From: Gemmobacter aquaticus
GTDB taxonomy: Bacteria; Pseudomonadota; Alphaproteobacteria; Rhodobacterales; Rhodobacteraceae
Length of the DNA stretch: 64,000 nucleotides
Direction: 5' to 3'
Assembly (NCBI RefSeq): GCF_007859075.1
Contig: NZ_VOAK01000001.1
Location: forward strand, 1 to 64,000
A program made the translations under genes and the position numbers. Every line of letters begins with the position of its first letter. Within the stretch, counting starts at the first letter, position 1. Of this stretch, positions 14,214 through 34,545 are shown one piece after another. The notes beneath the pieces were generated by a model. It was not told the DNA's origin. It saw only the letters and a list, made by a program, of their open reading frames with translations, and did not search any database.

Positions 14214-16331
14214 ATGGTCCAGGCCGGGTATACCGAGGACGCCGACATGTTCGGGCAGGCGCTTGATGAACTGCCGCCCGGCACGCCATTGCTTCACGGC
14301 CAATACACGATTGCGCGGTTCATCAACAGCGGTGGCTTCGGCATCACCTATCTTGCCAAGGACAGTCTCGACCGCGACGTGGTCATCAAGGAATGCTACG
14401 TCGATGCATTCTGTCGCCGCACCAGAACCATTGTCAGTGCCCGGTCACGTGCCCACCAGAACGAGATGAAGTCGATCATTCGTCACTTCATCCAGGAGGC
14501 GCGCAGCCTGTCCAAACTGCGGCATCCGAACATCGTCGGCGTGCATCAGGTGTTTGAGGACAACGACACGGCCTATATGGCGATCGATTTTGTGAACGGT
14601 CGCGATCTGGCGGATATCATCGACGATCCTGCGACCAGTCTGCCGCCCGGTCAGGTCGTGATGATGACGCGCAAGCTCTTGTCGGCGGTGGGATATGTGC
14701 ACGAGCATGGCCTGCTTCACCGCGATATCTCGCCTGACAATATCCTTCTGAATGCTGAAGGCGAGCCGGTGCTGATCGACTTTGGCGCCGCACGCGAACA
14801 TGTGCCTGAGAGCGGTCGCAAACATTCGGCACTGCGCGTTGTCAAAGATGGCTACTCGCCACAGGAATTCTACATCGCAGGCAGTGAGCAAGGACCGTGG
14901 AGCGACCTCTACGCCCTTGCTGCCACGCTCTACCACCTGATCAAGGGCGAGGCGCCGGTCAATGGGCAAGAGCGTCTTGCCGCCATCGCCGATCAGCGCC
15001 CTGATCCCTATGCCCCGCTCACGGGGAAGATCGAGGGCTATCCCGCAGGCTTCCTCGAAGCCATCGATCAGGCGATGAACACCAAGCCTTCGCGCCGCCT
15101 GCAATCTGCGGCCGAGTGGCTGGACATGATCGATGGCAAGGCGGCACCGGCGCCTGAAAAGGTCGTGGCATTTGCGCCGTTGATTGATCATGAAGAGCCG
15201 GTCGCGGCGCCCACCCAAGGGAAGGGCCGTGGGAAGCTTGCAGGGATTCTGGCCGTTGCAGCGGTCGCGGTCGCCGGTGGTGTGGGCTACGTCATGTTGG
15301 GCTCGGGCGATGTACCGCCAGTGCCGGGGCAGAACGCCAAGGTGGTTGCCGTGGCCCCTGCCGCGCCAGCGCCCAAGCCCGCATCGACGGCGCCTGCTGT
15401 CGCACCCGCTTTGACCGAGCCCCCGGCTGTGCCGAAACCGGCAGCGGTCGCCGTGCCCGCCGAACCAAAGGCTGCATCCGGCACACCCGAAGCCGCGCCG
15501 GCCAGCGCAGCCAAGACAGAGACCGCCGCGGCTGCTGCGCCGACGGCGTTGCCCGAACTGGCCGCCACCCCCGTTGCGTTGCCTGCGGGCACCCCGGCTC
15601 CTGCGGCACCTGTCGCCGCCGTCGAGCCGACCCCCGTGCCGGTGGCAGAGCCCGCCCCCCCGAAGGCGCCCGAGGCTGTTGCCGAGACGGCGCCCGTGGT
15701 TTCGCTGCCCGCGCCGCCGCTTGGCCCGGTACTTGAACAACAGATCACGCTGGCGCTGTGGGATATCGCACTTCCCTTCGACTATGTTGAAACAACCGAG
15801 GACAGTGCCACTGTGGCGATGATCAGCGCTGTTCATTCCGGTATCGACCAGGCGGTGGTCGGCCGATGGCTCGCTGAGGGCGTGGAGATCGACGCCGTGA
15901 ACGGAACCGCGCTGTCGCCGGAAGAGCCGTTCTCGACCCAGATCCTGAACGCCATGAAGATTGATCCCGATGGCTATACCCGCGTCGGCGTTCGCTACAA
16001 GGCGCCCGGCGCCGCGATGCCGGAACTCGGCCTGCTTGCGGTGCCGGTGGTTCAGCGCCTTGGCCTTGCCGATGGCACCATGCTGGAGGCACGTCGCGAT
16101 GGTGCAGGCACCGCGCTTGTCGTGACGGATGCGGCACCCTCGGAGACTGGCTTGCGGACGGGTGACGTGCTGCGCAGCGAAGCTGACACCGGCATCATGA
16201 TTGAGGGATCCGAGACGCTGGAGGAGGTGCTGAACAGCCTTGTCGCCAAAAACATCGGCACCGCCCGGTTCGAGGTGACGCGCGATGGCGCGCCCGCGAT
16301 TGCCACCTATTCACTCGCGCGGCGCGGATGA
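14214..16331 (+). CDS. Membrane Ser/Thr protein kinase with periplasmic PDZ-like domain
   Basis: 705 residues. The cytosolic kinase domain (about 30-310) has the Gly loop SGGFGITYLAKD, Lys59 in VVIKE, HRDISPDNIL and IDFGAARE, all intact. A single membrane segment follows at about 342-362. Outside is a long Ala/Pro/Val linker (about 370-510), then a folded region ending in a PDZ-like domain (about 600-700, GTALVVTDAAPSETGLRTGDVL). The ATG at 14214 follows GGTGGAG. It is the writer opposite the PP2C and FHA proteins encoded at 23.5-25.2 kb. The PpkA-like kinase core occurs in type VI secretion loci, but none is present here. Confidence 0.88.
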   Translation: MVQAGYTEDADMFGQALDELPPGTPLLHGQYTIARFINSGGFGITYLAKDSLDRDVVIKECYVDAFCRRTRTIVSARSRAHQNEMKSIIRHFIQEARSLSKLRHPNIVGVHQVFEDNDTAYMAIDFVNGRDLADIIDDPATSLPPGQVVMMTRKLLSAVGYVHEHGLLHRDISPDNILLNAEGEPVLIDFGAAREHVPESGRKHSALRVVKDGYSPQEFYIAGSEQGPWSDLYALAATLYHLIKGEAPVNGQERLAAIADQRPDPYAPLTGKIEGYPAGFLEAIDQAMNTKPSRRLQSAAEWLDMIDGKAAPAPEKVVAFAPLIDHEEPVAAPTQGKGRGKLAGILAVAAVAVAGGVGYVMLGSGDVPPVPGQNAKVVAVAPAAPAPKPASTAPAVAPALTEPPAVPKPAAVAVPAEPKAASGTPEAAPASAAKTETAAAAAPTALPELAATPVALPAGTPAPAAPVAAVEPTPVPVAEPAPPKAPEAVAETAPVVSLPAPPLGPVLEQQITLALWDIALPFDYVETTEDSATVAMISAVHSGIDQAVVGRWLAEGVEIDAVNGTALSPEEPFSTQILNAMKIDPDGYTRVGVRYKAPGAAMPELGLLAVPVVQRLGLADGTMLEARRDGAGTALVVTDAAPSETGLRTGDVLRSEADTGIMIEGSETLEEVLNSLVAKNIGTARFEVTRDGAPAIATYSLARRG

Positions 16332-16435
16332 CACCTGCCCGCTGCGGCGCGGGTCATCGGTGCCATCCTGCAAGACGTCAACTGATTTGGCCCGCTGATG
16401 CGAGCCTGACAAGAATCGACTGAAAGGACCAACGG

Positions 16436-17533
16436 ATGCGGCTTTACGCGAAGATCTCGGGCATTGCGGCGGGGCTCATCTGTGCCTCAACCCTCGCCTC
16501 TCAGGCACAGGTCGCCTGCGAGCAGTATCGCGCCACGGTCGGCGATACCCTGTTGGGAATCGCGATGAAGGCCTATGGCACCAAGGAGTATCAAAAGATC
16601 TACGGTGCCAACCGCGAGGCAATCGGCTCAAACCCTGACCTTCTGCGTGTGGGGACGCTGATAACAATTCCATGCGCCGACGGCAGTCTGCCTGCGACGG
16701 CCGAACAGAAGGCGCCTGATGCCGAGACCATCGCCGCGCAGGCCGCCCGTGTGGCAGAGCAGACCAAGGCGCAGGAGGCAATGCCGATCACGCTGATCAC
16801 CGGCAACGGATTTCTGCCCTTTACCGACGAACGCCTGCCGGGGCGGGGCTTGTTCACCGAACTGGTCGAGACCTCTGTCCTGCGCGCGGATGCCAAACAG
16901 AAGCTCAACGTGATCTTCATCAACGACTGGGCCTCGCATCTGGATACGCTTCTGCCGCTGATGGCCTTTGACGGCTCGTTCCCCTGGACGAAGCCCGATT
17001 GCAGCCAGCCTGCCGCACTCTCTGCCGATGATCGGTATCGCTGCGAAAACTACAACTTCTCTGAGCCCTTCTATGAGGTGGTTGACGGGCTCTTCTCGCG
17101 CAAGGGCAGCGGCTTTGCCGAAGCGCTGAGCCATGATGAGCTGAAGGGCACCCGCATTTGCCGTCCCGAAGGTCTGTCGACCGCCCATCTTGCCTCGGTC
17201 GGTCTGGCAGAGCCTGATGTCACCTTCCTGCGTCCTGAGCGCGTTGCCACTTGTTTCGAGGCTCTGATGGCGGGGCAGGTCGATATCGTTGCCGTGGAAT
17301 CCCAGCAGGCGACAGGCACCATCACCATGATGAAACTGCAGGACGAGGTTGTTGAAAACCCGAACCTCGGCGAGGTGAATGCGCTTCATGTCGTCGTGCA
17401 CAAGCAGAACCCGCGCGGGCGCGAAGTGCTGGATGTTCTGAACGCGGGCCTCGGCAATATGCTCGAAAGCGGCGAGTGGTATGACATCGTTTCGGGTGCG
17501 TTGAAACGGCAGGATGCGCTGCGCGTCAACTGA
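16436..17533 (+). CDS. Periplasmic LysM plus solute-binding domain protein (paralogue 1)
   Basis: 365 residues with a Sec signal (about 1-25), a LysM domain (about 28-80, GDTLLGIAMKAYGT and a Cys pair), a charged linker, and a type-3 solute-binding fold (about 115-355). LysM usually binds peptidoglycan glycans. No permease genes accompany it, so a sensory role is more likely than transport. It has the same length and layout as the protein at 25460-26557. It follows the kinase gene by 104 bases. Confidence 0.78.
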   Translation: MRLYAKISGIAAGLICASTLASQAQVACEQYRATVGDTLLGIAMKAYGTKEYQKIYGANREAIGSNPDLLRVGTLITIPCADGSLPATAEQKAPDAETIAAQAARVAEQTKAQEAMPITLITGNGFLPFTDERLPGRGLFTELVETSVLRADAKQKLNVIFINDWASHLDTLLPLMAFDGSFPWTKPDCSQPAALSADDRYRCENYNFSEPFYEVVDGLFSRKGSGFAEALSHDELKGTRICRPEGLSTAHLASVGLAEPDVTFLRPERVATCFEALMAGQVDIVAVESQQATGTITMMKLQDEVVENPNLGEVNALHVVVHKQNPRGREVLDVLNAGLGNMLESGEWYDIVSGALKRQDALRVN

Positions 17534-17561
17534 TCGACGCAGACCGGGCATTGCCGAAATC

Positions 17562-17585
17562 AAAAGGCCCCGCGAGGGGCCTTTT
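17562..17585. terminator. Bidirectional terminator between convergent operons
   Basis: AAAAGGCCCC and GGGGCCTTTT form a perfect 10-bp stem with loop GCGA. The symmetric A and T runs allow termination on both strands. It separates the kinase/LysM unit from the facing FHA-to-260-aa operon. Confidence 0.85.
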
Positions 17586-17591
17586 CATTTG

Positions 17592-18374
17592 TCAGAGGGT
17601 GAAGATCCGTCGCCAGGCGGCGTGGATTGCGGCACAGTCCTCGGGCGCGTGCACAAAGATTGCAAACTCATCATTCGCCCATGCGGCCGAGACAGAGCCT
17701 TCATCGGCCAGTGCCTTTTCCAGAATGATCAATCGCGGGGCCTCGCCCGACTGGTCGGCGCTGCGATAGGCACTTTGCATGCGCTGGCGCTGTGCCTCGG
17801 CGATCGGGCGCAGGCGGGCGAGCAAGGCCTGATCGTCGGCATGGCCGATCCAGGCCCCGCCCGACCAGAACAGGCACGCCGAATACTGCGGCTCACAGGC
17901 TTCGATGAACATCTGCACCGGGCTTGATGCGCGGTCGACCATAAGCATCTCGGCCAGCGCCTCACCCGAGATGCCGACACTTGCGGCAGACACCGATGCA
18001 TCGGGATGGCTGCAGTCGACCGTCAGAACCCGCTCAGGCGCGCACAGCGCCACCAGCGCTTCAGCCAGCGCCTCGAAGGCGTTGCTGTCATCGGGTGAGA
18101 GCGGCTGGCCCAGCGGTGCCCCTGCAGCCACCAGATCGGGAGAGGCAGAGGTCAGCAGCAAGATCCGGCGCCCCGCCACCGTCATGACGAGACGACTGTC
18201 GCCCGTCTGAAACTCAAGCTGGCGTTTCAGGATCGTTGTATCCACTTCGGCCAGAAGGGCTGCCAAGGGCGGTGGGTAGACCCCGTTTGACAAGACCCGA
18301 AGGCCCTCGCGAAAGATCGGGCGCTCGGCTCCGAGGACGCTGAGTTTGCGAAGGATCGAGCCGATGTCTGTCAT
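17592..18374 (-). CDS. Unknown 260-residue protein, last gene of the FHA/dynamin operon
   Basis: No signal peptide or membrane segment. It starts MTDIGSILRKL and seems to be two alpha/beta halves (about 1-120 and 125-260). It is somewhat like the neighbouring 147-residue protein in having short hydrophobic strands such as RRILLLTSAS and RLIILEKAL. I do not recognise it. Its place as the last gene of a seven-gene unit suggests an accessory or adaptor role. It ends 7 bases from the bidirectional terminator. Confidence 0.7.
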   Translation of the reverse strand: MTDIGSILRKLSVLGAERPIFREGLRVLSNGVYPPPLAALLAEVDTTILKRQLEFQTGDSRLVMTVAGRRILLLTSASPDLVAAGAPLGQPLSPDDSNAFEALAEALVALCAPERVLTVDCSHPDASVSAASVGISGEALAEMLMVDRASSPVQMFIEACEPQYSACLFWSGGAWIGHADDQALLARLRPIAEAQRQRMQSAYRSADQSGEAPRLIILEKALADEGSVSAAWANDEFAIFVHAPEDCAAIHAAWRRIFTL

Positions 18375-18406
18375 TTCCGGAACACTTCAAGGTCAGAGAA
18401 GGGGGA

Positions 18407-18850
18407 TCAGTCTGCCGCAGCAAGACGGCTTAGGGTGGCCTGCGCCGCAGCACGAAACGCTGGCAGATCGAGCGAGGGGTTACAGATGCAGATCAGCACG
18501 TCATCGGGGTGTTTGTCGGCACGCAGGATCACACGGATCTCGTCTGCCGTGCAAATCATGGCCGCCTGCGGAGAGAGGCCACCCTGCGCTGCAAGCGTTG
18601 CGGCAGCGTCGGCGCACAGGCGGTTCAGCGCATGCTGTTCCAGTGCGGCATCCGAATTCGTGACCAGCACCATGCCCGCGCCGATGTCGGCGAAGGCAAG
18701 CGTCGTGCAGTCGGGGAATTGCCGCTGCAACAGATCCAGGTCTTCCGAAGGCATCAGGGCATGTCCCGCCACAGCATCCGCAGAAGACGGGCTTAGCGCA
18801 AAAAACCCTTTTTGCATAGCCTCTTGCGGGTGTTGACGCGGGGCGACCAT
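18407..18850 (-). CDS. Unknown 147-residue protein, possible Roadblock/LC7-like
   Basis: A small soluble protein that starts 6 bases after the upstream GTPase stop. A strand-rich middle (TTLAFADIGAGMVLVTNSD, about 49-67) and a following helix recall Roadblock/LC7 proteins, which often accompany small GTPases, but the likeness is weak and by eye only. A later stretch HPDDVLICICNPSLDL holds two Cys. It could equally be an unrelated alpha/beta protein. Confidence 0.65.
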   Translation of the reverse strand: MVAPRQHPQEAMQKGFFALSPSSADAVAGHALMPSEDLDLLQRQFPDCTTLAFADIGAGMVLVTNSDAALEQHALNRLCADAAATLAAQGGLSPQAAMICTADEIRVILRADKHPDDVLICICNPSLDLPAFRAAAQATLSRLAAAD

Positions 18851-18856
18851 CGCAGT

Positions 18857-19879
18857 TTACCGGAACAGTCGGCGGATCAGGTCGCCTGCCCCGGACGCGG
18901 GCTTTGGTTCGATGCGATCGACAGGTGTCGTCAGCACCAGCGCCGGGCGTTCCTCGCGAATGGGGCGTGGGGTCTGCGGTGGGCCAACCGGCTTCACGCG
19001 GCGGGGTACGATGCGACGGGGCATTGTATCCACCGCATCATGCGTGGCACTGACGGGTGCGACTGCCGCGGGACGGCGCAGCACGATGGTATTGCCTGCG
19101 CGCGCGGGCGGCTCGAGTGTTGCAGTGCGGGGAGGTGCCTCCGCCTGCCACTCGCGCTGCCGGGAGATGGGTGCAGCCTCTGCCATGGCCGAGGGTGCAT
19201 CATGACCGGCGCGGGCGATGATATCCATCAGCGCGCCAGAGAAGGCCTCGGCGCCGCACGCCTGCCATTGATCCGCGTCGGTCGCCTCGATCGCCTGGAT
19301 CAGCGAGATCGGGCAGGTCTCGGCAAAGAGCCCCGCCGTTTCGCGCGCCAGACGGGCGCAGACGCGGGCGCGGTCATTCTCGGTTGTCAGCTTGTCAAAG
19401 CGGGTCACCAGCAACAGGCTGTTCTTGCGGACGTCGTCGGTGATCCGCTCCCACACGGCCGCTTCCGACTGGCGCCAGGCTTGCGTGGCATGGGTGCACC
19501 ACAGCACGCCATCCACCTCTCCCAGCATCCTTTCCCAGACCTCGGACGCCATGTTCGGGTCTGAGATCCCAGGAAAATCGATCAGGTCGCACTGGTCAAG
19601 GATCTCGGCATCGAAGGCGAGCTTGACGTAGAGGGTATCCTCCAGCGGAACCTCCTCCAGCCGATCCAGAGAGACCGGATGCTCTGTCCCGTCGATCGCC
19701 ACCCGATAGGGCTCGGCATCGCCCGCGCTGATCCAGACCGGGGGCAGGCGCGTGGCCGTTACCTTCTCGGGCAGGGCGCGACGACCGAGCAGCAGGTTGG
19801 AGAGCGTGCTCTTGCCTGCGCTGAACTCGCCCATGATGGCGATGCGGGGTTTGCGTCCGTTGGGGTGGGCATCTTTCAT
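18857..19879 (-). CDS. Dynamin-like GTPase, short form
   Basis: 340 residues. G1 GEFSAGKST (about 17-25), G3 DFPGISDP (about 98-105) and G4 TRFDKL (about 160) are clear. The part after about 230 is a Pro/Arg-rich, probably disordered tail ending in GDLIRRLFR, a possible amphipathic anchor. It lacks the helical stalk of full dynamins, so it may pair with the 700-residue protein upstream. Its ATG overlaps that gene's stop by 4 bases. Confidence 0.82.
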   Translation of the reverse strand: MKDAHPNGRKPRIAIMGEFSAGKSTLSNLLLGRRALPEKVTATRLPPVWISAGDAEPYRVAIDGTEHPVSLDRLEEVPLEDTLYVKLAFDAEILDQCDLIDFPGISDPNMASEVWERMLGEVDGVLWCTHATQAWRQSEAAVWERITDDVRKNSLLLVTRFDKLTTENDRARVCARLARETAGLFAETCPISLIQAIEATDADQWQACGAEAFSGALMDIIARAGHDAPSAMAEAAPISRQREWQAEAPPRTATLEPPARAGNTIVLRRPAAVAPVSATHDAVDTMPRRIVPRRVKPVGPPQTPRPIREERPALVLTTPVDRIEPKPASGAGDLIRRLFR

Positions 19880-21978
19880 GCCGCAGTTCCTTCGCGCGTG
19901 GTCAATTCTTCTGCTTCGATGTCGGCGTCTTCGGCCCAGGACAGCTCGTCATAGAGCAGGTCCAAGAGCCCGGCCCGTTCGGCTTGCGACGAGATGCCGA
20001 AAAGCGAGCGCAGGTCGTGCATGCTCAGATGAGCCTTGTCGACAAAGTCCATCAGGATGGCGCGCTGCTCGGCCAGAAAGTCGGCCAACCGGGCGATTGC
20101 GGCCTGCCGTATCTCGGCGGCTTGCCGGTCTTTCAACTCGGCGATGATCGGGGCGGTTTCGGCTGCGATCAGGTCGTGAAAGCCACTGGCGTAGGCACGG
20201 TAGCCACGCCGCTTGCGCCACCAGCTTTGCCAGAGCGAGGTTTGCAGATCGAGCACGATGGTCGCACCCAGCGAAACCGGAGCGGGAACTTCAACAGGGC
20301 CGGGCGGTGTGACGGTGAAGCCGTCAACCTCTACCGCAACCGCCTGACGATAGGCCTGTGCCAGACGATTGGCCGTGGCGCCATAGACAGCCACGCACGT
20401 GCTGCCGAGGTTCTTGCGCAGGACCTGATGGCTGGTGCGCAACAGCATGCGCAAACCATCGGGGCTGTATTTCCAGACCTGATCCTCGCCCTTTTGCTCC
20501 AGATGTTGCAGCAGGGATTCGAGGGCACGATCCAGAAAGCGCGCATGCGACTGCTCGACCCGTGCGGCAAAGGCAGCAAACACGCGATCCAACTCGGCAT
20601 TCAGGTGCTGGTGCGCCTCTGCCTCAACCTGATCAAGAAGGGCGGCGAGCGGGCCAGGCGCCATCACGTCGATCGCGTTCCCATCGAGGCGCATCGAGGC
20701 GACGCTGGTGGTGGCGCGCAGCCCCGAGACAATATTGCGCGCACGCTTGCGGATATGGGCGAGGAAGCGGGTTCCCGTATCCTCGGCAATCCGCTCGGAC
20801 AGACATTCCAATAGCGCGGGCATGCCGGACATCTGCCAGATGACATCGCGCCGCGTAGGGTCCGCCCCTTGCAGGCCCGGTGTAACCGCAGCGAAGGCGC
20901 GCAGCGTCTCGGCGCTGTCGCGGGCCATGGCGCCAAACCCGCCGCCAAGGGCCATGTTGGCCCAGTAGGCACTGCCAAAGACGATAGCGGGGTCTTTAGG
21001 CCCGTTCAGCCGTTCAAACGTCGTGAGGATGCTGTTGCGGATATCGGGAAGCTGGCTTGCCGGGTCAGAAAGCTCGTCAATGCGGTTGACGAAGATCACG
21101 ATCCCCTTCGACTTCAGTGTCGAGATCAGCCGGATCAAACCCATGTCGACCGAGCTCAGTGCTTGCGATGCCGACAGCACCACAACGCACAGCCGGCTGT
21201 CGCGCAGCGATTTGATCGTGATCTGTTCGCGCATCAGGAAGGTGTCGTTCACGCCGGGCGTGTCGCGCAAACAAAGTGGCACTGGCAGCGAAGGCACCTT
21301 CAGGTAAAGGTCGGCCGATTTGGTGATATCGGCAAAGCGGCCCTGCTGATCGGTCTGGCCGTATCCATCGAAGTCATCGCCGAGACAGACATAGCGCTGC
21401 ACAAGATCATCATCGAGATGTCCGTAATCGTGCCGTTGGCCCAGAAGCAGTTCGAACCGGCGGCCAAGGCGCGCGCGTGTTTTCTCCCGCATCTCGGCAA
21501 TCTGGTCGTGGATCTTCTGCAGCTCTTCGTTGGCGCCCGCGCGGGCGGAAAGCTCGCCAATGCGCCCGCCGTACGACACCAGATGATCCCATTCATCGCC
21601 GTTGAAGAACTGGAACGATGCAACCGGCGCACCTTCGGCCTGCCGTTCGTTCACATGCAGCGAGGTCACGACAGAGGTCCAGGGGTTCACGTCTGCCGGC
21701 AGCAGTCCCGGCCGCCCCACCATTGCATTGACGAGCGAGGTTTTGCCCGACTTGATCTGCCCAACCATCGTGATGCTTGGGGCATGCGCATCGAGCTCGG
21801 CGATCAGACGCGCGACCTGCCGTTCCGTGGCGGGATCGCAGAGCATGCCCAGATCGCCCAGCGTTTCGCGCAGCTCGGCCATCTCGTGCCGAAGCGCAAC
21901 AAGCCTGCCAAGGCCAGACTGCATGAGATCCGCAATTTCGGCACGCGGTGCGCCCGGTATTTCCGAATTGACGTTCAT
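19876..21978 (-). CDS. Dynamin-family GTPase, long form
   Basis: 700 residues. The GTPase domain (about 70-350) has G1 GQIKSGKTS, G3 RDTPGVNDTF and G4 VNRIDEL. A long helical region follows. A Trp/Arg/Lys-rich patch LWQSWWRKRRGYR near residue 584 could be a membrane-binding paddle. The family acts on membranes by nucleotide-driven assembly. The start has AGGAG at good distance. Neighbouring short GTPase and 468-residue P-loop protein suggest a hetero-oligomer. Confidence 0.85.
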   Translation of the reverse strand: MNVNSEIPGAPRAEIADLMQSGLGRLVALRHEMAELRETLGDLGMLCDPATERQVARLIAELDAHAPSITMVGQIKSGKTSLVNAMVGRPGLLPADVNPWTSVVTSLHVNERQAEGAPVASFQFFNGDEWDHLVSYGGRIGELSARAGANEELQKIHDQIAEMREKTRARLGRRFELLLGQRHDYGHLDDDLVQRYVCLGDDFDGYGQTDQQGRFADITKSADLYLKVPSLPVPLCLRDTPGVNDTFLMREQITIKSLRDSRLCVVVLSASQALSSVDMGLIRLISTLKSKGIVIFVNRIDELSDPASQLPDIRNSILTTFERLNGPKDPAIVFGSAYWANMALGGGFGAMARDSAETLRAFAAVTPGLQGADPTRRDVIWQMSGMPALLECLSERIAEDTGTRFLAHIRKRARNIVSGLRATTSVASMRLDGNAIDVMAPGPLAALLDQVEAEAHQHLNAELDRVFAAFAARVEQSHARFLDRALESLLQHLEQKGEDQVWKYSPDGLRMLLRTSHQVLRKNLGSTCVAVYGATANRLAQAYRQAVAVEVDGFTVTPPGPVEVPAPVSLGATIVLDLQTSLWQSWWRKRRGYRAYASGFHDLIAAETAPIIAELKDRQAAEIRQAAIARLADFLAEQRAILMDFVDKAHLSMHDLRSLFGISSQAERAGLLDLLYDELSWAEDADIEAEELTTREGTAA

Positions 21979-22102
21979 GTCTGTCTCCTAGTCCTTCAAC
22001 AAGGCGTTGCCGCGGGCTGGGCCTTTGGCATGACGCGGGACCGCAATGGGCACTGTTACAATCACAAGGTCGAACGCGGGGCCGTATGACCCCGCGCGGG
22101 GT

Positions 22103-23509
22103 TCAGGTCTGGGCCATAGGGGCGCCAAATCTGGCTGCGGGCGTAAAGGCTGCGGGGATGGCCACCTCTGACCGCGCCAAGGCTGTCTCGATTTCGTGCT
22201 TCAGCTGGATGAGAAGGCTCAGGCTTTCGCCAAGTGTGGCAGGTCCGCCTTCCAGCTGCATCAACTGCACCAGATCGGCTGCGTCAAAGGCCGCCTCGCG
22301 CAACTCTACAAGGCCGGGCGCGCCCGAGGGGGCACCATCCAGATGGTCGCTGATCCATTGCACAAGTGCTGCGGTATCTTCCGCCAGACGGGCGAGCCCT
22401 GAGGCGCCTGCAGCCCGCATCGTCGCATCGGCCTCGCGACCGTGCCGTGCGATGCGCCCGAGGGCAGGCTCGCAAATCTCGCGCAGCGCCGTCCCCTTTT
22501 GCGGAACCACTGGCCGAGCGGGAACAACAGGCTGCGGCGTGTGGGTTGCTGTGGCGGGTCTGGGCGACGGGCGGCGGGGCTGCACGATCTTTGGTGCCGG
22601 GGAGGCAAGCGGCTCTGTCAGGATCAGCGGCGCGGGCTTTGGCGCGGGGGCGACAACGGCCGCTGCCGAGGGGGCGGCGACCTTCGCCTGCACCGGCTGG
22701 CCAAACTGATGCAGCACAAGCTCGGCCCTGTCGCGCGCGGCATCGCGCCCCATGTCGATATCGCGCATGATGGCGGCAATCAGCGCGCGGCCACCACTGC
22801 GTGTCAGCTGCTCCCGGTCGATGCTGCCATCGGCGCGGCGTGCGGCAATAGCCTCGGTTGTGGCAATCGCCAACACATGACGGAACTGATCGGCGCCCGC
22901 GCGCAATTGCGCTAAGGTCGGATCAAGCGTGCCATTCGCAACCAGCGTGTCTGCCTTGGTCAGCAGAAGATAGGCGTGATCCTGCATCGCCTCATCCACG
23001 CCGGACCAGACGAGCCGCTCGCCCGCGCCAAACCGCTGCGTGCACCACAGTGCGATGTCGGTACGGCCGACAGCCCAGGACAAGGCGCGCTCGACCTCGG
23101 CCTGTTCGGACGGCAGGGCAAGTTCCATGACGCTGATCTTGCGCAGGGCCGGAAGCGGAAGCTCGATCCGCACAAAACGCGGCGAGAGCGAGGCGACCGT
23201 GGCGGCATCAAAGGCAGCCATCCGGCGCTCGCGGCCATCGGGCAGGGTGCAGATGCAGCAGGCGGTGTCCCCCCACACGACCTCGATCGTCGGAAGATTG
23301 CGCACCGGTGCAAGGGCCGAGGCCCCGATCAACAGGTTGACCAGCGTCGACTTGCCTGACCCGGGCGGGCCCATCACCGTCAGCCGAACAGGCTGGGTCA
23401 ACTGCCGCACCAGCGTCTCGACATGGGGCGCCTGCGCCGGGGGAATGGTCCCTTCGGCGAGATGCGCACCCAGGGACTGGGCCAACTGTTGAAGCGCCTC
23501 TTCAGCCAC
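22103..23509 (-). CDS. P-loop GTPase-like protein with degenerate switch
   Basis: About 468 residues from the GTG at 23509, which follows a G-rich ribosome site and overlaps the phosphatase stop by 8 bases. G1 GPPGSGKSTLVN (about 41-52) and G4-like LTKAD are present, but the usual DxxG G3 position reads MELALP, so hydrolysis may be lost or altered. A Pro/Ala-rich linker (about 270-330) leads to a helical C-terminal domain. It resembles the dynamin neighbours in layout. The frame is open further upstream, so the start is not certain. Confidence 0.75.
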   Translation of the reverse strand: MAEEALQQLAQSLGAHLAEGTIPPAQAPHVETLVRQLTQPVRLTVMGPPGSGKSTLVNLLIGASALAPVRNLPTIEVVWGDTACCICTLPDGRERRMAAFDAATVASLSPRFVRIELPLPALRKISVMELALPSEQAEVERALSWAVGRTDIALWCTQRFGAGERLVWSGVDEAMQDHAYLLLTKADTLVANGTLDPTLAQLRAGADQFRHVLAIATTEAIAARRADGSIDREQLTRSGGRALIAAIMRDIDMGRDAARDRAELVLHQFGQPVQAKVAAPSAAAVVAPAPKPAPLILTEPLASPAPKIVQPRRPSPRPATATHTPQPVVPARPVVPQKGTALREICEPALGRIARHGREADATMRAAGASGLARLAEDTAALVQWISDHLDGAPSGAPGLVELREAAFDAADLVQLMQLEGGPATLGESLSLLIQLKHEIETALARSEVAIPAAFTPAARFGAPMAQT

Positions 23510-24479
23510 GGCTTGCCCCCCCGGCAACACGACGGAAGAACACGGCCTTGCCGTCTTCGGTGCCAACGGCCTGTTCGCGCGCGGCGGGCTGTTGCAAGCC
23601 GCCGCCAAGCGGCACGATGCGCGTGGCACCTGCGCCGGTTTGATCGATCAGATCGGTCGGCTTCTTGCGGATCGCCTGCGCAATCGGCTTGATGTGATTG
23701 AGCTTGATGACAGCGAAGGAAATGTTGTCCTGATCCGGGCAGTCAAGTTCGTGCAGTGCCGCGAGCAGATGCTCGGCGATTTCCGCGCTTTTGCGGCGAC
23801 GATACTTGTAGAGGATCTTTTCGATCTTCCCGTCTTCAAGGTACTGCAGCCCGTCGCTGGAGACCACGACGATATCGCCGACTTCAAGCGTCAGCGGCTT
23901 GACCGGGCAATCGGTGCGCGCAATCCGGTCGCCGTAGATGACCGAGGTCAGGCAGTTCCGGTCCGGGTGGTTGCGGGCTGTTTCGGGGTCAATCATGCCC
24001 TGGCGCATCATGTGGTCGATTTGCGGCGCCATGGAATGGTCTTCGTTCACTTGCCGCAGCTTGCCGCCGCGCATGTGATAGAGCGGCGAGTCCCCGATCG
24101 ACATCCAGTACATCCGGTTCTCGACCATCACGAGCGCGACCAGTGTCGCACCCATGCCGCGCGTGCACGGGTTGTCCGAGACATAGTCGCGAACACAGAT
24201 GTTGGCGTTCATCGCGGCGGCCGCGAGGTATTTCGGGATCTCGCCCTCCAGTTCGCAGAAGTTCGCACTCTCGAACTTCAGGTCGCTGAAGACTTCGGTC
24301 ACCACGATCTTCGAGGCGACGTCACCGGCGGCATGGCCACCCATGCCATCGGCCAGCACCGCCAGCCCGATATCGGTGCCGGTGGGAAAGTCGGTGACGA
24401 TGGCGTCTTCCTGGTAGTCTCGGCCGCCCTGGCAGATTGCCGAGGCCACGTCAAAACGCGGCTCAGGCGATCTCCACAT
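23502..24479 (-). CDS. PP2C-family Ser/Thr protein phosphatase
   Basis: 325 residues covering one PP2C domain. Metal-site motifs LADGMGGHAAGD, GMGATLVAL, SIGDSPLYHM, SSDGLQYL and DQDNISF are all intact, so it should be active. It removes phosphate from Ser/Thr and is the natural counterpart of the kinase at 14214-16331. The ATG at 24479 lies inside the end of the FHA gene (17-base overlap) with GGGGAG upstream. The last 60 residues are a poorly conserved tail. Confidence 0.9.
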   Translation of the reverse strand: MWRSPEPRFDVASAICQGGRDYQEDAIVTDFPTGTDIGLAVLADGMGGHAAGDVASKIVVTEVFSDLKFESANFCELEGEIPKYLAAAAMNANICVRDYVSDNPCTRGMGATLVALVMVENRMYWMSIGDSPLYHMRGGKLRQVNEDHSMAPQIDHMMRQGMIDPETARNHPDRNCLTSVIYGDRIARTDCPVKPLTLEVGDIVVVSSDGLQYLEDGKIEKILYKYRRRKSAEIAEHLLAALHELDCPDQDNISFAVIKLNHIKPIAQAIRKKPTDLIDQTGAGATRIVPLGGGLQQPAAREQAVGTEDGKAVFFRRVAGGASRG

Positions 24480-25209
24480 TCTCGGACTCCCCTTGCGCGT
24501 CGTCAGACCAGTTGAAGCTTGCGTCGCACAGTCCGACAAAGCGCAGAGTTGTTTCGCCCAGGCGGATCAGGTCGCCGTTCTTCAGAACTTCGTTGCTGAT
24601 CACCGGCTTGTCGTTCAGGCGAACGATGTTCGACTTGCCACCATGGCCCAGATAGAACTGGAAGCTTTCGGGATCATAGACGATCGCGGCATGGTTGCTG
24701 CGCGAGATCGAGCTGTCGCCGAAGTCGAGACTGATGGCCTGATCCTCGCCGCGACCGATCTGCGACATCCCAGCCTGAAGCGTGAAGGATTCGCCGCGGC
24801 CCGGCCCCTTGACCACCACGATCCAGCCAACCGGAAAACGGGTGCCTGCCGAGGGGGCATCGACGGGATTGCTGAACAGATCGACCACACGGCCGTCGGA
24901 TTTGTCAAAACCCAGCAGCCGCGTCTTGGCGCGGGTCTTGCGCACGGGGCCTGCCAGCACACGACCAGACGTCTCAGCCGTATCGGTAGGGGCAGGGATC
25001 GCAGGAGCTGCGTCCATATCCCAGATGCTAGCTGGCGCGGCTGGCGCCTCCTGGGGCTCGGCCGAGGGTTCGGGCCAGCTTGAATTCAATTGCACCTGAC
25101 GGGTCAGCACGGACTGATCCGGGGTTGGTTCGGACTTGGATGCGAGGTCATTGCCCTGCCGCTTTGCGTCAGACCCGCCCCGCCCGAGAAGCTTTCCAAA
25201 TACACTCAT
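24463..25209 (-). CDS. FHA-domain phosphothreonine-binding protein
   Basis: 248 residues. The N-terminal 130 are low-complexity with several Thr residues that could be kinase targets. The C-terminal FHA domain (about 140-235) has IGRGEDQ, SISRSNHAAI and the following Asn/Gly turn LNDKPVISN, the usual phospho-Thr pocket. It is the reader in a writer-eraser-reader set with the kinase and PP2C genes. First gene of the operon; the ATG at 25209 follows GGAGG. Confidence 0.88.
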   Translation of the reverse strand: MSVFGKLLGRGGSDAKRQGNDLASKSEPTPDQSVLTRQVQLNSSWPEPSAEPQEAPAAPASIWDMDAAPAIPAPTDTAETSGRVLAGPVRKTRAKTRLLGFDKSDGRVVDLFSNPVDAPSAGTRFPVGWIVVVKGPGRGESFTLQAGMSQIGRGEDQAISLDFGDSSISRSNHAAIVYDPESFQFYLGHGGKSNIVRLNDKPVISNEVLKNGDLIRLGETTLRFVGLCDASFNWSDDAQGESENVEIA

Positions 25210-25280
25210 AGTCAACGACCTCCAATTGCATCTGTTGGGAAAGACTCGCGCCAGATCTGTGTCGATTGTATCTTGTCACC

Positions 25281-25306
25281 ATGCCAATCTGTCCAAATCA
25301 TGGCAT
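25281..25306. promoter_or_regulatory. Inverted repeat upstream of the FHA operon
   Basis: ATGCCA (25281-25286) and TGGCAT (25301-25306) are 6-base arms with a 14-base spacer, 72 bases before the FHA start. It could be an operator, but arms this short may occur by chance. The rest of 25210-25422 shows no gene. Confidence 0.25.
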
Positions 25307-25422
25307 TAGTTGGAAGGTTTGCGACCGGCCTTCCCCGCCCGCCAGCACACCGGGCCGCAGAACACCGTGCCCCGCAACAGCGAGGTTGGCGCAGGGGCAT
25401 TCGAGGCGCATCAGGCTGTGAA

Positions 25423-25453
25423 CAGCCCCCCACGCCGTGCGGCAGGGGGGCTG
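25423..25453 (-). terminator. Hairpin after the second LysM gene
   Basis: CAGCCCCCC (25423-25431) pairs with GGGGGGCTG (25445-25453) just past the stop at 25460. The loop is 13 bases and the T-run on the minus strand is poor, so it is a plausible but weak terminator. Confidence 0.45.
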
Positions 25454-25459
25454 CCCGGA

Positions 25460-26557
25460 TCAGTTGCTCAGCTTGTTATAATCAGAGAGCGAGGTCGCCA
25501 CGATGTCGTACCATTCGCCGGTCTTGCGCATCTCGGTCAGGCCCTTGTTCAGCATGGCGATATAGATACGGCCGCGCGGATTGAACTTGGACGTCACCAG
25601 ACGGAACGAGACGATCTCTGACAGGTTCGGGTTGGCCACGACCTTGTCCATCGCGTTCAGCTTGGTGAAGTTGTCTGTCGCGGTTTCAAGTTCGATCGAA
25701 TAGATGTCCACCTCGCCCGCCAGCAGCATTTCGGCGCATTCGTTGGGGGTCTTGGGGCGCACGAACTTGACAAAAGGCTCTTTGATGCCGCGCAGTTCCA
25801 GCTTGTCGAAGGGCCAGTCGGCTGGGCGGCAGAAGCGCGAGTCCTTGAAGTCCTCATAGGTTTCGGCGGCGGCGTATTTGTTGTCAGGCAGCGTCATGAA
25901 GCTTTCGGCAACTTCATAGACCGGCAGCGAGTACTCGAAATCCGTGCAGCGCTTCTGGCCATCAGGCGGCAGGGCGCTGACATTCGAGCAATCGGTCTCG
26001 GCCCATGCCACCGAGATGTCATAGGCGCCCGAGGGCAGCAGCGTTTCGATGTGCGAGCCCCAGTCATCAACCCAGGACACTGTGCTTTCGCGGTTGTTGC
26101 CGCCGCGCTGCAGGGCGGTGGTGGCGATGCGCACCAGCATGCCCCCGCCATTCAGTGTCTCGTCGGTGAAGGGCTTCCACTCGTTGCCGCTGACAAATTT
26201 GAGCGGCGGTTCATAGACATTGCTCTTCTTGGCGGTCGCGGCCTGCTTGGCCTCTTCGGCCTCGATGATCGATGAAAGCTCGGCATCGGCGGACAGACGA
26301 CCGTCCTTGCAGGGCAGCTTCAGCTCAAGCCCGGCCTTAAGGTTGTTGGGGTTGCCTGCCAGCACCTCGCGGTTCGCGTTGAAGATGATCTGGTAGTCGA
26401 AGGTGCCGTAGGCCGCCTGGGCGATGGAGCCGAGGCTGTCGCCATCGCGCACGGTGTAGGGGGCGCAGGCCTCTTGCGCCTGGGCCGCGAACGGTGCGGC
26501 AATGGCCATGACGGCACAGGTCACAAACGGGTGCACAGATTTGGAAAAGGTCTTCAT
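25460..26557 (-). CDS. Periplasmic LysM plus solute-binding domain protein (paralogue 2)
   Basis: 365 residues with a Sec signal (about 1-27), a LysM domain (about 30-82, RDGDSLGSIAQAAYGTFDYQ, Cys pair) and a solute-binding fold (about 118-360). Residues around VDDWGSHIETLLPSGAYD match the equivalent INDWASHLDTLLP region of paralogue 1, so the two come from one duplication. It lies upstream of the FHA operon in the same direction with its own promoter region. Likely a cell-wall or ligand sensor; no permease is near. Confidence 0.78.
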   Translation of the reverse strand: MKTFSKSVHPFVTCAVMAIAAPFAAQAQEACAPYTVRDGDSLGSIAQAAYGTFDYQIIFNANREVLAGNPNNLKAGLELKLPCKDGRLSADAELSSIIEAEEAKQAATAKKSNVYEPPLKFVSGNEWKPFTDETLNGGGMLVRIATTALQRGGNNRESTVSWVDDWGSHIETLLPSGAYDISVAWAETDCSNVSALPPDGQKRCTDFEYSLPVYEVAESFMTLPDNKYAAAETYEDFKDSRFCRPADWPFDKLELRGIKEPFVKFVRPKTPNECAEMLLAGEVDIYSIELETATDNFTKLNAMDKVVANPNLSEIVSFRLVTSKFNPRGRIYIAMLNKGLTEMRKTGEWYDIVATSLSDYNKLSN

Positions 26558-33581: not shown

Positions 33582-33846
33582 CCCATGGCGTCGGCACCTC
33601 TTGCGGTACGGGTTTGGTCTTTGGCACCCCTGCCCCTACAGGGCGCGACGAAAAGCTTGCGGCGATTTTCAGGGGAAGACAATCGGCAACGCGAAGTGCG
33701 AATACGCCTCGCGGCGGGTCGCTTTATAGCCTGACTGTCAGCCCAGGACCTTTCGGCCCCTGCATACATGGCAATTGCCGGAAGGAAAGGTTAAGGTTGA
33801 TAACTGGCTGACGCCGCAATCCCAAGAATTCGTTACGGAAACCGAC

Positions 33847-34545
33847 ATGAAAGCAGAGTATGCCGCCCTTGTCAGACGCTCGCTTCTGCTGTCCTCGGCG
33901 CCCGAGCCCGTCGTCAACACCATGCTGGATGAGGCGCGCGTCCGCAATTTCTCGCGTGGTGCAACCATCTTTCTGCAGGGTGAGCGTGCGAGCGCGATCT
34001 ATCTTGTGGCCGATGGTTGGGTAAAGCTCTACCGCATCGCGCCAAATGGGGCCGAGGCGGTCGTGGGCGTCTTCACCAAGGGCTCGTCCTTTGGCGAGGC
34101 AGTGGCATTCCGGCACGACACTTACCCGGTCGCCGCCGAAGCCGTGACGGATTGCACCCTTATCCGCATCGAGGCCGACAGCTTCTTGCGCCAGATCCGC
34201 GACAACCCCGAGGTTGCAATTGCGGTTCTGGCCTCGACGTTTGTGCATCTGCACAGCCTCGTCGCGCAGATCGAGCAGTTGAAAGCGCAGACAGGCGCGC
34301 AGCGGGTGGCCGAGTTCCTGCTGGAACTTGCCCCGTGCGAGAGCGGTGCCTGTGAGGTGACGCTGCCCTACGACAAGGTGCTCATCGCCGGTCGTCTGGG
34401 CATGAAGCCCGAAAGCCTGAGCCGGGCGTTCGGGCGGCTGAAGGATCATGGGGTGGTCATCCGGCAGAACGTGGCGCAAATCTCGGATATCGCGCAGCTG
34501 CGCGATTATGTCGAGGAAGACCCCGCGCTGGCCTGGTCACGCTGA
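33847..34545 (+). CDS. Crp/Fnr-family regulator, Dnr/NnrR-like
   Basis: 232 residues: cyclic-nucleotide-like sensor domain (about 15-130), dimer helix (about 132-150) and a helix-turn-helix with GRLGMKPESLSRAFGRLKDHGV. It lacks the N-terminal Cys cluster of FNR, so it is not a 4Fe-4S oxygen sensor; NO sensing through haem, as in Dnr/NnrR, is probable. It converges on norF with a 9-base overlap and likely drives the boxes at 40090, 44258 and 53363. The start could also lie upstream at 33775. Confidence 0.85.
   Translation: MKAEYAALVRRSLLLSSAPEPVVNTMLDEARVRNFSRGATIFLQGERASAIYLVADGWVKLYRIAPNGAEAVVGVFTKGSSFGEAVAFRHDTYPVAAEAVTDCTLIRIEADSFLRQIRDNPEVAIAVLASTFVHLHSLVAQIEQLKAQTGAQRVAEFLLELAPCESGACEVTLPYDKVLIAGRLGMKPESLSRAFGRLKDHGVVIRQNVAQISDIAQLRDYVEEDPALAWSR

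Follow-up and report, generated by a model that had tools for sequence, protein, structure and literature searches.

The control trio of type VI secretion, PpkA-PppA-Fha, comprises a kinase, a PP2C phosphatase and an FHA protein, and the FHA switch proteins OdhI and GarA carry a Thr site N-terminal to the FHA domain. In Campylobacter jejuni, two dynamin-like proteins (DLPs), DLP1 and DLP2, form a tetramer (PDB 5owv); their operon putatively includes an HcpA-like gene, and a role in membrane repair is speculated for them, as for DynA of B. subtilis (PMC6104087). Two further papers describe Escherichia coli RdcA/RdcB as a soluble dynamin-like GTPase system that activates DgcE by contact (PMC6510439), and the Roadblock proteins MglB and CvnB as regulators of switch GTPases (PMC4316618). 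Here we describe a locus of Gemmobacter aquaticus at positions 14,214-26,557 of a 64,000-nt stretch of contig NZ_VOAK01000001.1 (hereafter the window), in which a Ser/Thr kinase, a PP2C phosphatase and an FHA protein are encoded in one block with a dynamin pair, a degenerate GTPase and at least one predicted Roadblock protein. In window order the proteins are named KIN, LYS1, P260, P147, G340, DYN, PLP, PPC, FHA and LYS2 (Table 1), with gene starts taken from a mechanical list of open reading frames (ORFs).

A preliminary description made from the window's letters had listed ten genes and proposed a candidate undescribed system. All ten are indeed ORFs where it placed them, and Pfam and NCBIfam confirmed the kinase, the PP2C phosphatase, the FHA protein and two dynamin-family GTPases; P147 and P260 gave no Pfam match at E ≤ 0.05, and PLP gave weak P-loop matches only. 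The search for DYN covered an even sample of 149 genomes of the order, among them that of the window; the order genomes listed in the results all belong to one family in the classification used. DYN was present at 84 places in 60 genomes, which represent 27 of the 73 genera, and accompanied P147 in each of the 55 genomes with P147 (cut-offs 1e-4 for P147 and 1e-10 for DYN; the genome co-occurrence tests reported here ignore relatedness). Forty neighbourhoods from 36 DYN-bearing genomes, picked for spread, were annotated with profiles. The order KIN-FHA-PPC-PLP-DYN-G340-P147-P260 was found on one strand in 28, with interspersed LysM genes allowed, and all eight core genes in 30. Among the exceptions, two genes of L046 were lost to overlapping ORFs at the profile step and are visible in a separate annotation, L062 is a 3.4-kb contig without the full eight-gene order, and L059 and L060 hold all eight core genes, rearranged, plus a second dynamin. 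Seven further loci (L063-L069) represent a different dynamin locus, where no module kinase was found.

A second set, the best 80 of 539 relatives from a scan of a named genome collection, gave the one-strand order in 53 loci and all eight genes in 61; some genomes are common to both sets, and the counts are therefore not additive. Of the 19 loci short of all eight, 14 reach a contig end, although the gene missing from L123 is internal, and five (L086, L119, L126, L127 and L136) are incomplete without that excuse. The neighbourhood is thus kept together in relatives, the check that the preliminary description had proposed, and these counts bear out a grouping beyond chance. We conclude that the eight-gene block is a real unit, conserved among many relatives of Rhodobacter.

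Spacing and orientation divide this unit in two. For FHA-PPC, PPC-PLP and DYN-G340 the median gap is about zero or negative, and it amounts to 24.5 for P147-P260, 36 for KIN-FHA and 82 for G340-P147; the widest, about 155 over 102 pairs, separates PLP from DYN. In six Leisingera-type loci DYN-G340-P147-P260 run opposite in strand to KIN-LYS-LYS-FHA-PPC-PLP, and in the window KIN and LYS1 are the genes inverted relative to the remaining cluster. The widest gap and the opposite strands therefore point to a signalling half and a GTPase half that travel together, presumably as separate transcripts.

The signalling half keeps its key residues almost throughout. Using the residues that we take to be key for catalysis or binding, and counting one row per locus, we found the kinase Lys, HRD and DFG kept in 101-102 of 103 proteins, PP2C D64/G65, G149/D150, D229/G230 and D271/N272 in 106 of 106, and FHA R155, S171, H175 and N201 in 105 of 105, so that the proposed kinase-FHA-PP2C set stands with its active residues intact. 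PPC matched the NCBIfam Stp1 model at 2.7e-44, and the FHA protein matched OdhI at 1e-5 and FhaB at 1.7e-6, each below the model cut-off. A transmembrane segment follows the kinase domain in 69 of 97 uncut kinases. The PDZ-like tail ascribed to the kinase is seen in relatives and not in the window protein alone: the KIN ectodomain by itself matched no Pfam family at E ≤ 1, whereas PDZ_6 matched 12 of 20 kinase ectodomains, the window's own not among them (best 1e-5), and a profile of the 20 matched DegP at 3e-5 over the whole sequence, with no single stretch passing alone. On these profile matches, the ectodomain of long-form kinases is of PDZ type.

The N-terminal part of the FHA proteins is variable except for a single fixed site, R-x-x-T-R-x-x-G-F, whose whole pattern occurs in 100 of 105 proteins and whose Thr occurs in all 105; in 70 of the 100 it lies 50-52 residues before the FHA Gly-Arg. 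By analogy with known FHA switches, this Thr may be phosphorylated and act as a switch.

The LysM/solute-binding proteins proved weaker matches than the preliminary description stated. The NCBIfam LysM-protein model matched them at 1e-5 and 1e-7, SBP_bac_3 matched LYS1 at 1.6e-3 and Pfam LysM matched LYS2 at 1.4e-3, all below cut-off. LysM proteins occur in 14 of 103 kinase-bearing loci, and where the kinase in such a locus is uncut it is a transmembrane kinase (9 of 9). LYS2 relatives were found in 38 genomes, nine of which lack DYN, and also away from the module. The low occurrence and the relatives in genomes without DYN rule these proteins out as core components; as the proposed sensors of the system they are present in the window and would be optional. 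At ten loci away from the module (L166-L175), LysM/solute-binding proteins form same-strand tandem pairs in seven, and in L166, L169, L170 and L174 a related protein of 271-376 amino acids (aa), without a Pfam match at E ≤ 0.01, adjoins the LysM genes.

In the GTPase half, DYN keeps its G1-G4 residues in 106 of 106 proteins (K79, T101, D239/G242 and N298/D301, with G4 reading N-R-x-D), and G340 keeps K23 in 102, T43 in 101, D101/G104 in 102 and T159/D162 in 102 of 103. Few of the roughly 130 residues after the last well-kept G-domain position of G340 are conserved; P292 and R294 of a tail P-x-R motif are kept in 101 of 103. The best PDB matches of the DYN profile were 5owv chain A (1.8e-8, 732 residues) and 2j68 (7e-8), which we take to be the bacterial dynamin-like protein BDLP of Nostoc, and that of the G340 profile was 5owv chain C (1e-17, 614 residues). 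Since DYN and G340 match two different chains of 5owv, they would form a pair of the DLP1:DLP2 kind. Judged by its sequence, G340 is a small partner cut down to a G domain plus a variable tail; the helical trunk and lipid-binding tip that mark both partners of a DLP1/DLP2-type pair are not apparent in G340. DYN contains a Trp-rich stretch near residue 580, conserved in 101-105 of 106 proteins per position (one of the four is Leu in the window), which is possibly a membrane tip. Hydropathy revealed no transmembrane segment in 110 of 127 DYN proteins. The kinase-less dynamin loci L063-L069 lie in the same family, and three of them hold two dynamin pairs in a row.

These features bear on whether the GTPases work on membranes or serve as a signalling switch in the manner of RdcA/RdcB, fed by the kinase trio and driving a downstream enzyme or polarity system. 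The solubility of RdcA/RdcB and its activation of DgcE by contact, the regulation of switch GTPases by MglB and CvnB, and the many DYN proteins without a transmembrane segment speak for such a switch. However, DYN resembles membrane-binding DLPs and bears the near-invariant Trp-rich stretch at its possible tip, no output enzyme stands out among the recurrent flanking genes, and flanks differ between loci. We consider a pure signalling switch rather unlikely, and a membrane role for the dynamin pair is pursued below.

PLP clusters with the G340 family, with a clean split between PLP and G340 in the tree (100/99). By pattern test the P-loop is present in 98 of 110 PLP proteins vs 122 of 123 G340 proteins, and DxxG occupies the expected place in 5 of 110 vs 108 of 123, which makes PLP a probable pseudo-GTPase. 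The claim of three dynamin-like GTPases is thus right by ancestry, but the third is degenerate, with switch II mostly lost. L059, L060 and a Ruegeria conchae record show the order DYN1-G340-P147-P260-DYN2-PLP-KIN-FHA-PPC-LYS. The PLP adjoining DYN2 in these Ruegeria-type loci still reads D-L-P-G, and in the tree the L059 and L060 copies fall among the other PLPs. The simplest story is that there were originally two dynamin pairs, that DYN2 was lost, and that its partner was kept in the signalling half as a pseudo-GTPase; DYN2 sits on a long branch and may therefore have been gained later instead. On the R. conchae plasmid, an extra small hypothetical gene (L165:11543-11953) that matched no module profile lies directly upstream of DYN1.

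The preliminary description had suggested structure prediction for its 147- and 260-residue proteins. Sequence searches with P147 returned no consistent Pfam family and no PDB sequence match. Its AlphaFold2 model, built from an alignment of 54 members, had a mean predicted local distance difference test (pLDDT) score of 85 and the helix (H) and strand (E) order H-E-E-H-E-E-E-H. Foldseek found 78 matches in the PDB at E ≤ 0.001; the 50 listed are all MglB, Roadblock, p14/MP1 or Ragulator/Rag-complex chains, the best being MglB of Myxococcus (8e-6) and a Roadblock protein of Streptomyces (1e-5), and Roadblock 3kye is among the matches. P147 is therefore predicted to be a Roadblock/LC7-fold protein missed by sequence searches.

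P260 showed a weaker likeness. Its sequence yielded no consistent Pfam family and three chance-level PDB matches; in its model (pLDDT 90), residues 152-258 repeat the H-E-E-H-E-E-E-H order of P147. Matches to p14/LAMTOR had E-values of 0.03-0.04, probabilities of 0.93-0.97 and root-mean-square deviations of 5-6 Å, with target TM-scores of 0.39-0.54 for the Roadblock-type chains listed, and the first matches by E-value were phytochromes (probability 0.3 or less). From the model, the C-terminal half of P260 likely contains a Roadblock domain. Profile-profile comparison gave no link between P147 and P260. The P260 family also includes six proteins of 248-299 aa that occupy its position at other loci (hhalign 99%). 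Beside the kinase-less dynamin pair, six of the seven loci L063-L069 carry a ~130-aa Roadblock-type protein, of which one in four tested matched Robl_LC7 (1.6e-3, below the Pfam cut-off). The predicted Roadblock fold of P147, and possibly of P260, therefore suggests GTPase regulators built into the module.

From the gene content and order, the conserved catalytic residues, the predicted folds and the common ancestry of PLP and G340, we infer how the module might work, including every interaction, phosphorylation, membrane action and benefit to the cell named here. The signalling part (kinase, FHA, PP2C, PLP and, in some lineages, LysM proteins) would set the state of a mechanical part (DYN, G340, P147 and P260). 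Where the kinase is of the membrane type, its PDZ ectodomain would read the state of the periplasm, sometimes aided by LysM/solute-binding proteins. The kinase would phosphorylate the FHA protein at its conserved Thr and probably further proteins of the module as well; PP2C would reverse this, and the FHA domain would gather the partners that carry phosphate. As a copy of G340 with a dead switch, PLP might link the FHA complex to DYN or compete with G340 for DYN, while P147 and perhaps P260 could set GTP hydrolysis or assembly by acting on the G domains as MglB does on MglA. DYN:G340 would then assemble at the inner membrane and tether, reshape or repair it. We put at about even the chance that kinase/PP2C/FHA signalling switches the dynamin pair through Roadblock and pseudo-GTPase regulators.

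Several observations count against this proposal. Twenty-eight of the 97 uncut kinases have no transmembrane segment; the sensed signal is therefore not the same everywhere, and the periplasmic sensing put forward in the preliminary description cannot hold family-wide. G340 is too short for the trunk of its 614-residue match, so that tethering of the Campylobacter kind is not assured. For the Roadblock assignments, Robl_LC7 matched none of the 54 P147 members at E ≤ 1, hhalign did not link P147 to the Roadblock-type neighbour protein of about 130 aa (probability ~1%), and Foldseek returned nothing for P260 at E ≤ 0.001, the match of its C-terminal domain being weak. Locus L061 (genome G082) holds KIN, FHA, PP2C, DYN and G340, and no PLP, P147 or P260 was found there. 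Finally, DYN is present in one of 11 genomes of the window's genus (G000 and G866-G875, two of the others being less than 90% complete), and the module is therefore dispensable. Locus L061 may also be viewed as a stripped module, useful as a minimal version.

More tentatively, the module may represent a new class of membrane-remodelling machine, a dynamin heteropair under direct Ser/Thr-phosphorylation control, timed by built-in Roadblock regulators and a pseudo-GTPase from a second dynamin pair. If true, it would be a bacterial counterpart of the eukaryotic scheme that places membrane-bound GTPases under Roadblock scaffolds and kinases. Little is known of how bacterial dynamins are turned on and off, and because a kinase, a phosphatase, a phospho-reader and probable GTPase regulators share a block with the dynamin pair, the question can now be put to a direct test in environmental bacteria. 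The module further suggests that a dynamin partner has become a regulator of the pseudo-GTPase kind, and brings to light a predicted Roadblock protein that escapes sequence searches.

The distribution of the module also invites a defence interpretation, in which an anti-phage or stress-conflict system would keep membrane-active GTPases held off by the kinase/phosphatase pair. Presence is patchy both across the order and within the genus, 18 plasmid records carry DYN relatives (12 Leisingera, 5 Ruegeria and 1 Rhodobacter), and the best PADLOC matches of the kinase are defence kinases. However, the kinase matches may mirror the shared kinase domain alone, no other module gene scored strongly in PADLOC, and the Pfam results contained no toxin-like domain. 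The GTPases gave only weak LeoA/LeoBC matches, the best non-kinase one being LeoA with DYN (1.8e-9, 35 bits), and the PADLOC system models, LeoABC among them, were not matched. PHROGs gave no match at E ≤ 0.01 for the five module proteins searched. We regard a defence role as improbable and retain the phosphorylation-controlled dynamin pair as the working proposal. Two of the plasmid records were inspected; both contain the module, with its small proteins annotated as hypothetical.

Outside the family, searches that scored two or three candidates per genome, and may thus have missed some, matched DYN in 2 of 385 genomes of the class and 9 of 398 of the phylum; all are marked as the same family except G841, whose dynamin pair had no other module genes within the 20 kb fetched. 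Of the 11 genomes of the genus, 10 have the flanking catalase gene and 3 the glycoside hydrolase gene that also flanks the module. Besides the window's genome, G874 alone has both, on different contigs, so that recent gain and repeated loss are indistinguishable there. Reaction-centre genes were found in 33 of 60 DYN genomes vs 30 of 89 others (p = 0.012), and because this test is uncorrected for relatedness we draw no link to photosynthesis.

The remainder of the window, read from translations, includes an AlkB-like membrane hydroxylase gene adjoining a cytochrome P450 gene (30988-33581), followed by a Crp/Fnr-type regulator (33775-34545). A denitrification-like region (35414-62542) carries norD/norQ/norB-like, nir-type cytochrome and d1-haem genes together with nosR-nosZ-nosD-nosF-nosY-like and ApbE-like genes. 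No RNA element reached the gathering threshold in 10000-31000.

Table 1. Features of the module locus in the window.
Feature	Position	Strand	Evidence or remark
KIN, Ser/Thr kinase	14214..16331	+	Pfam PF00069 9e-32; cytosolic kinase domain, then one transmembrane segment, Pro/Ala-rich linker and ectodomain
KIN transmembrane segment	~15243-15299	+	hydropathy
KIN ectodomain, putatively PDZ-type	~15729-16328	+	
LYS1, LysM/solute-binding-type, accessory	16436..17533	+	NCBIfam LysM protein 1.2e-5; SBP_bac_3 1.6e-3
P260, two-domain protein	17592..18374	-	
P260 C-terminal domain	~17595-17933	-	Roadblock-like element order
P147, predicted Roadblock/LC7-fold protein	18407..18850	-	real start probably near 18754 (~115 aa)
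G340, dynamin-family GTPase	18857..19879	-	Dynamin_N 5e-11; G domain and variable tail with P-x-R motif
DYN, large dynamin-like GTPase, 700 aa	19876..21978	-	Dynamin_N 3e-11
Near-invariant Trp-rich stretch in DYN	~20200-20271	-	possible membrane tip, inferred
PLP, 508-aa ORF, G340 paralogue	22103..23530	-	P-loop near 23348-23371; switch II DxxG lost; start uncertain
PPC, PP2C phosphatase	23502..24479	-	PP2C_2 4e-10; start inferred at 24479, ORF opens at 24539
FHA-domain protein	24463..25215	-	Pfam FHA 2.9e-8
R-x-x-T-R-x-x-G-F motif, candidate phospho-Thr switch	24907..24933	-	upstream of FHA domain
LYS2, LysM/solute-binding-type, accessory	25460..26557	-	NCBIfam LysM protein 1.1e-7

A literature search, whose coverage excluded most subscription papers, found no published description of this gene combination, in line with the earlier suggestion of an undescribed system, and a term search of the main text of a 2020 survey of NTP-dependent conflict systems found neither dynamin nor Roadblock (PMC7159879). 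The same three signalling activities are found in the module and in the type VI trio, and a TssC/VipB gene, the only tss gene sought, occurs in the window's genome, which could make the module a displaced post-translational control unit of type VI secretion. However, the FHA protein scored 16.4 bits against the VI_FHA/TagH model (cut-off 120.25), and the genome's one TssC/VipB match is on contig C27, whereas the module is on C2. DYN occurs in 21 of 41 TssC genomes, an association that is not significant (p = 0.13, uncorrected for relatedness), and among the places listed about 61 kb is the smallest distance between VipB and DYN within a single contig (G015). The score, the distance and the missing association rule out membership of a type VI locus, and a displaced unit of this kind is highly improbable.

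The module FHA protein resembles OdhI and GarA in having a Thr site before its FHA domain and differs in the R-x-x-T-R-x-x-G-F form and the usual spacing of that site. The kinship with Campylobacter DLP1/DLP2 lies in the adjacent dynamin-family genes and in the likeness of DYN to chain A and of G340 to chain C of 5owv, but the window module adds a kinase, a PP2C phosphatase, an FHA protein, a probable pseudo-GTPase and a predicted Roadblock protein, and its G340 has no room for a trunk. With MglAB and the conservons it shares a Roadblock protein encoded together with a GTPase and, in the case of the conservon, a kinase-type sensor (PMC4316618, PMC13343842); its GTPases, however, are of the Dynamin_N and not the Ras-like family, and its kinase is of the Ser/Thr type with PP2C and FHA partners rather than a histidine kinase. 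RdcA/RdcB (YjdA/YjcZ) of E. coli likewise has a regulatory role and pairs a dynamin-like GTPase with a protein of unknown family from the same operon, but it is described without a second GTPase or a kinase trio, the comparison being one of description and not of sequence (PMC6510439). The module thus shares parts with dynamin pairs, with MglAB and the conservons, and with the type VI trio, and it fails a tested defining feature of each.

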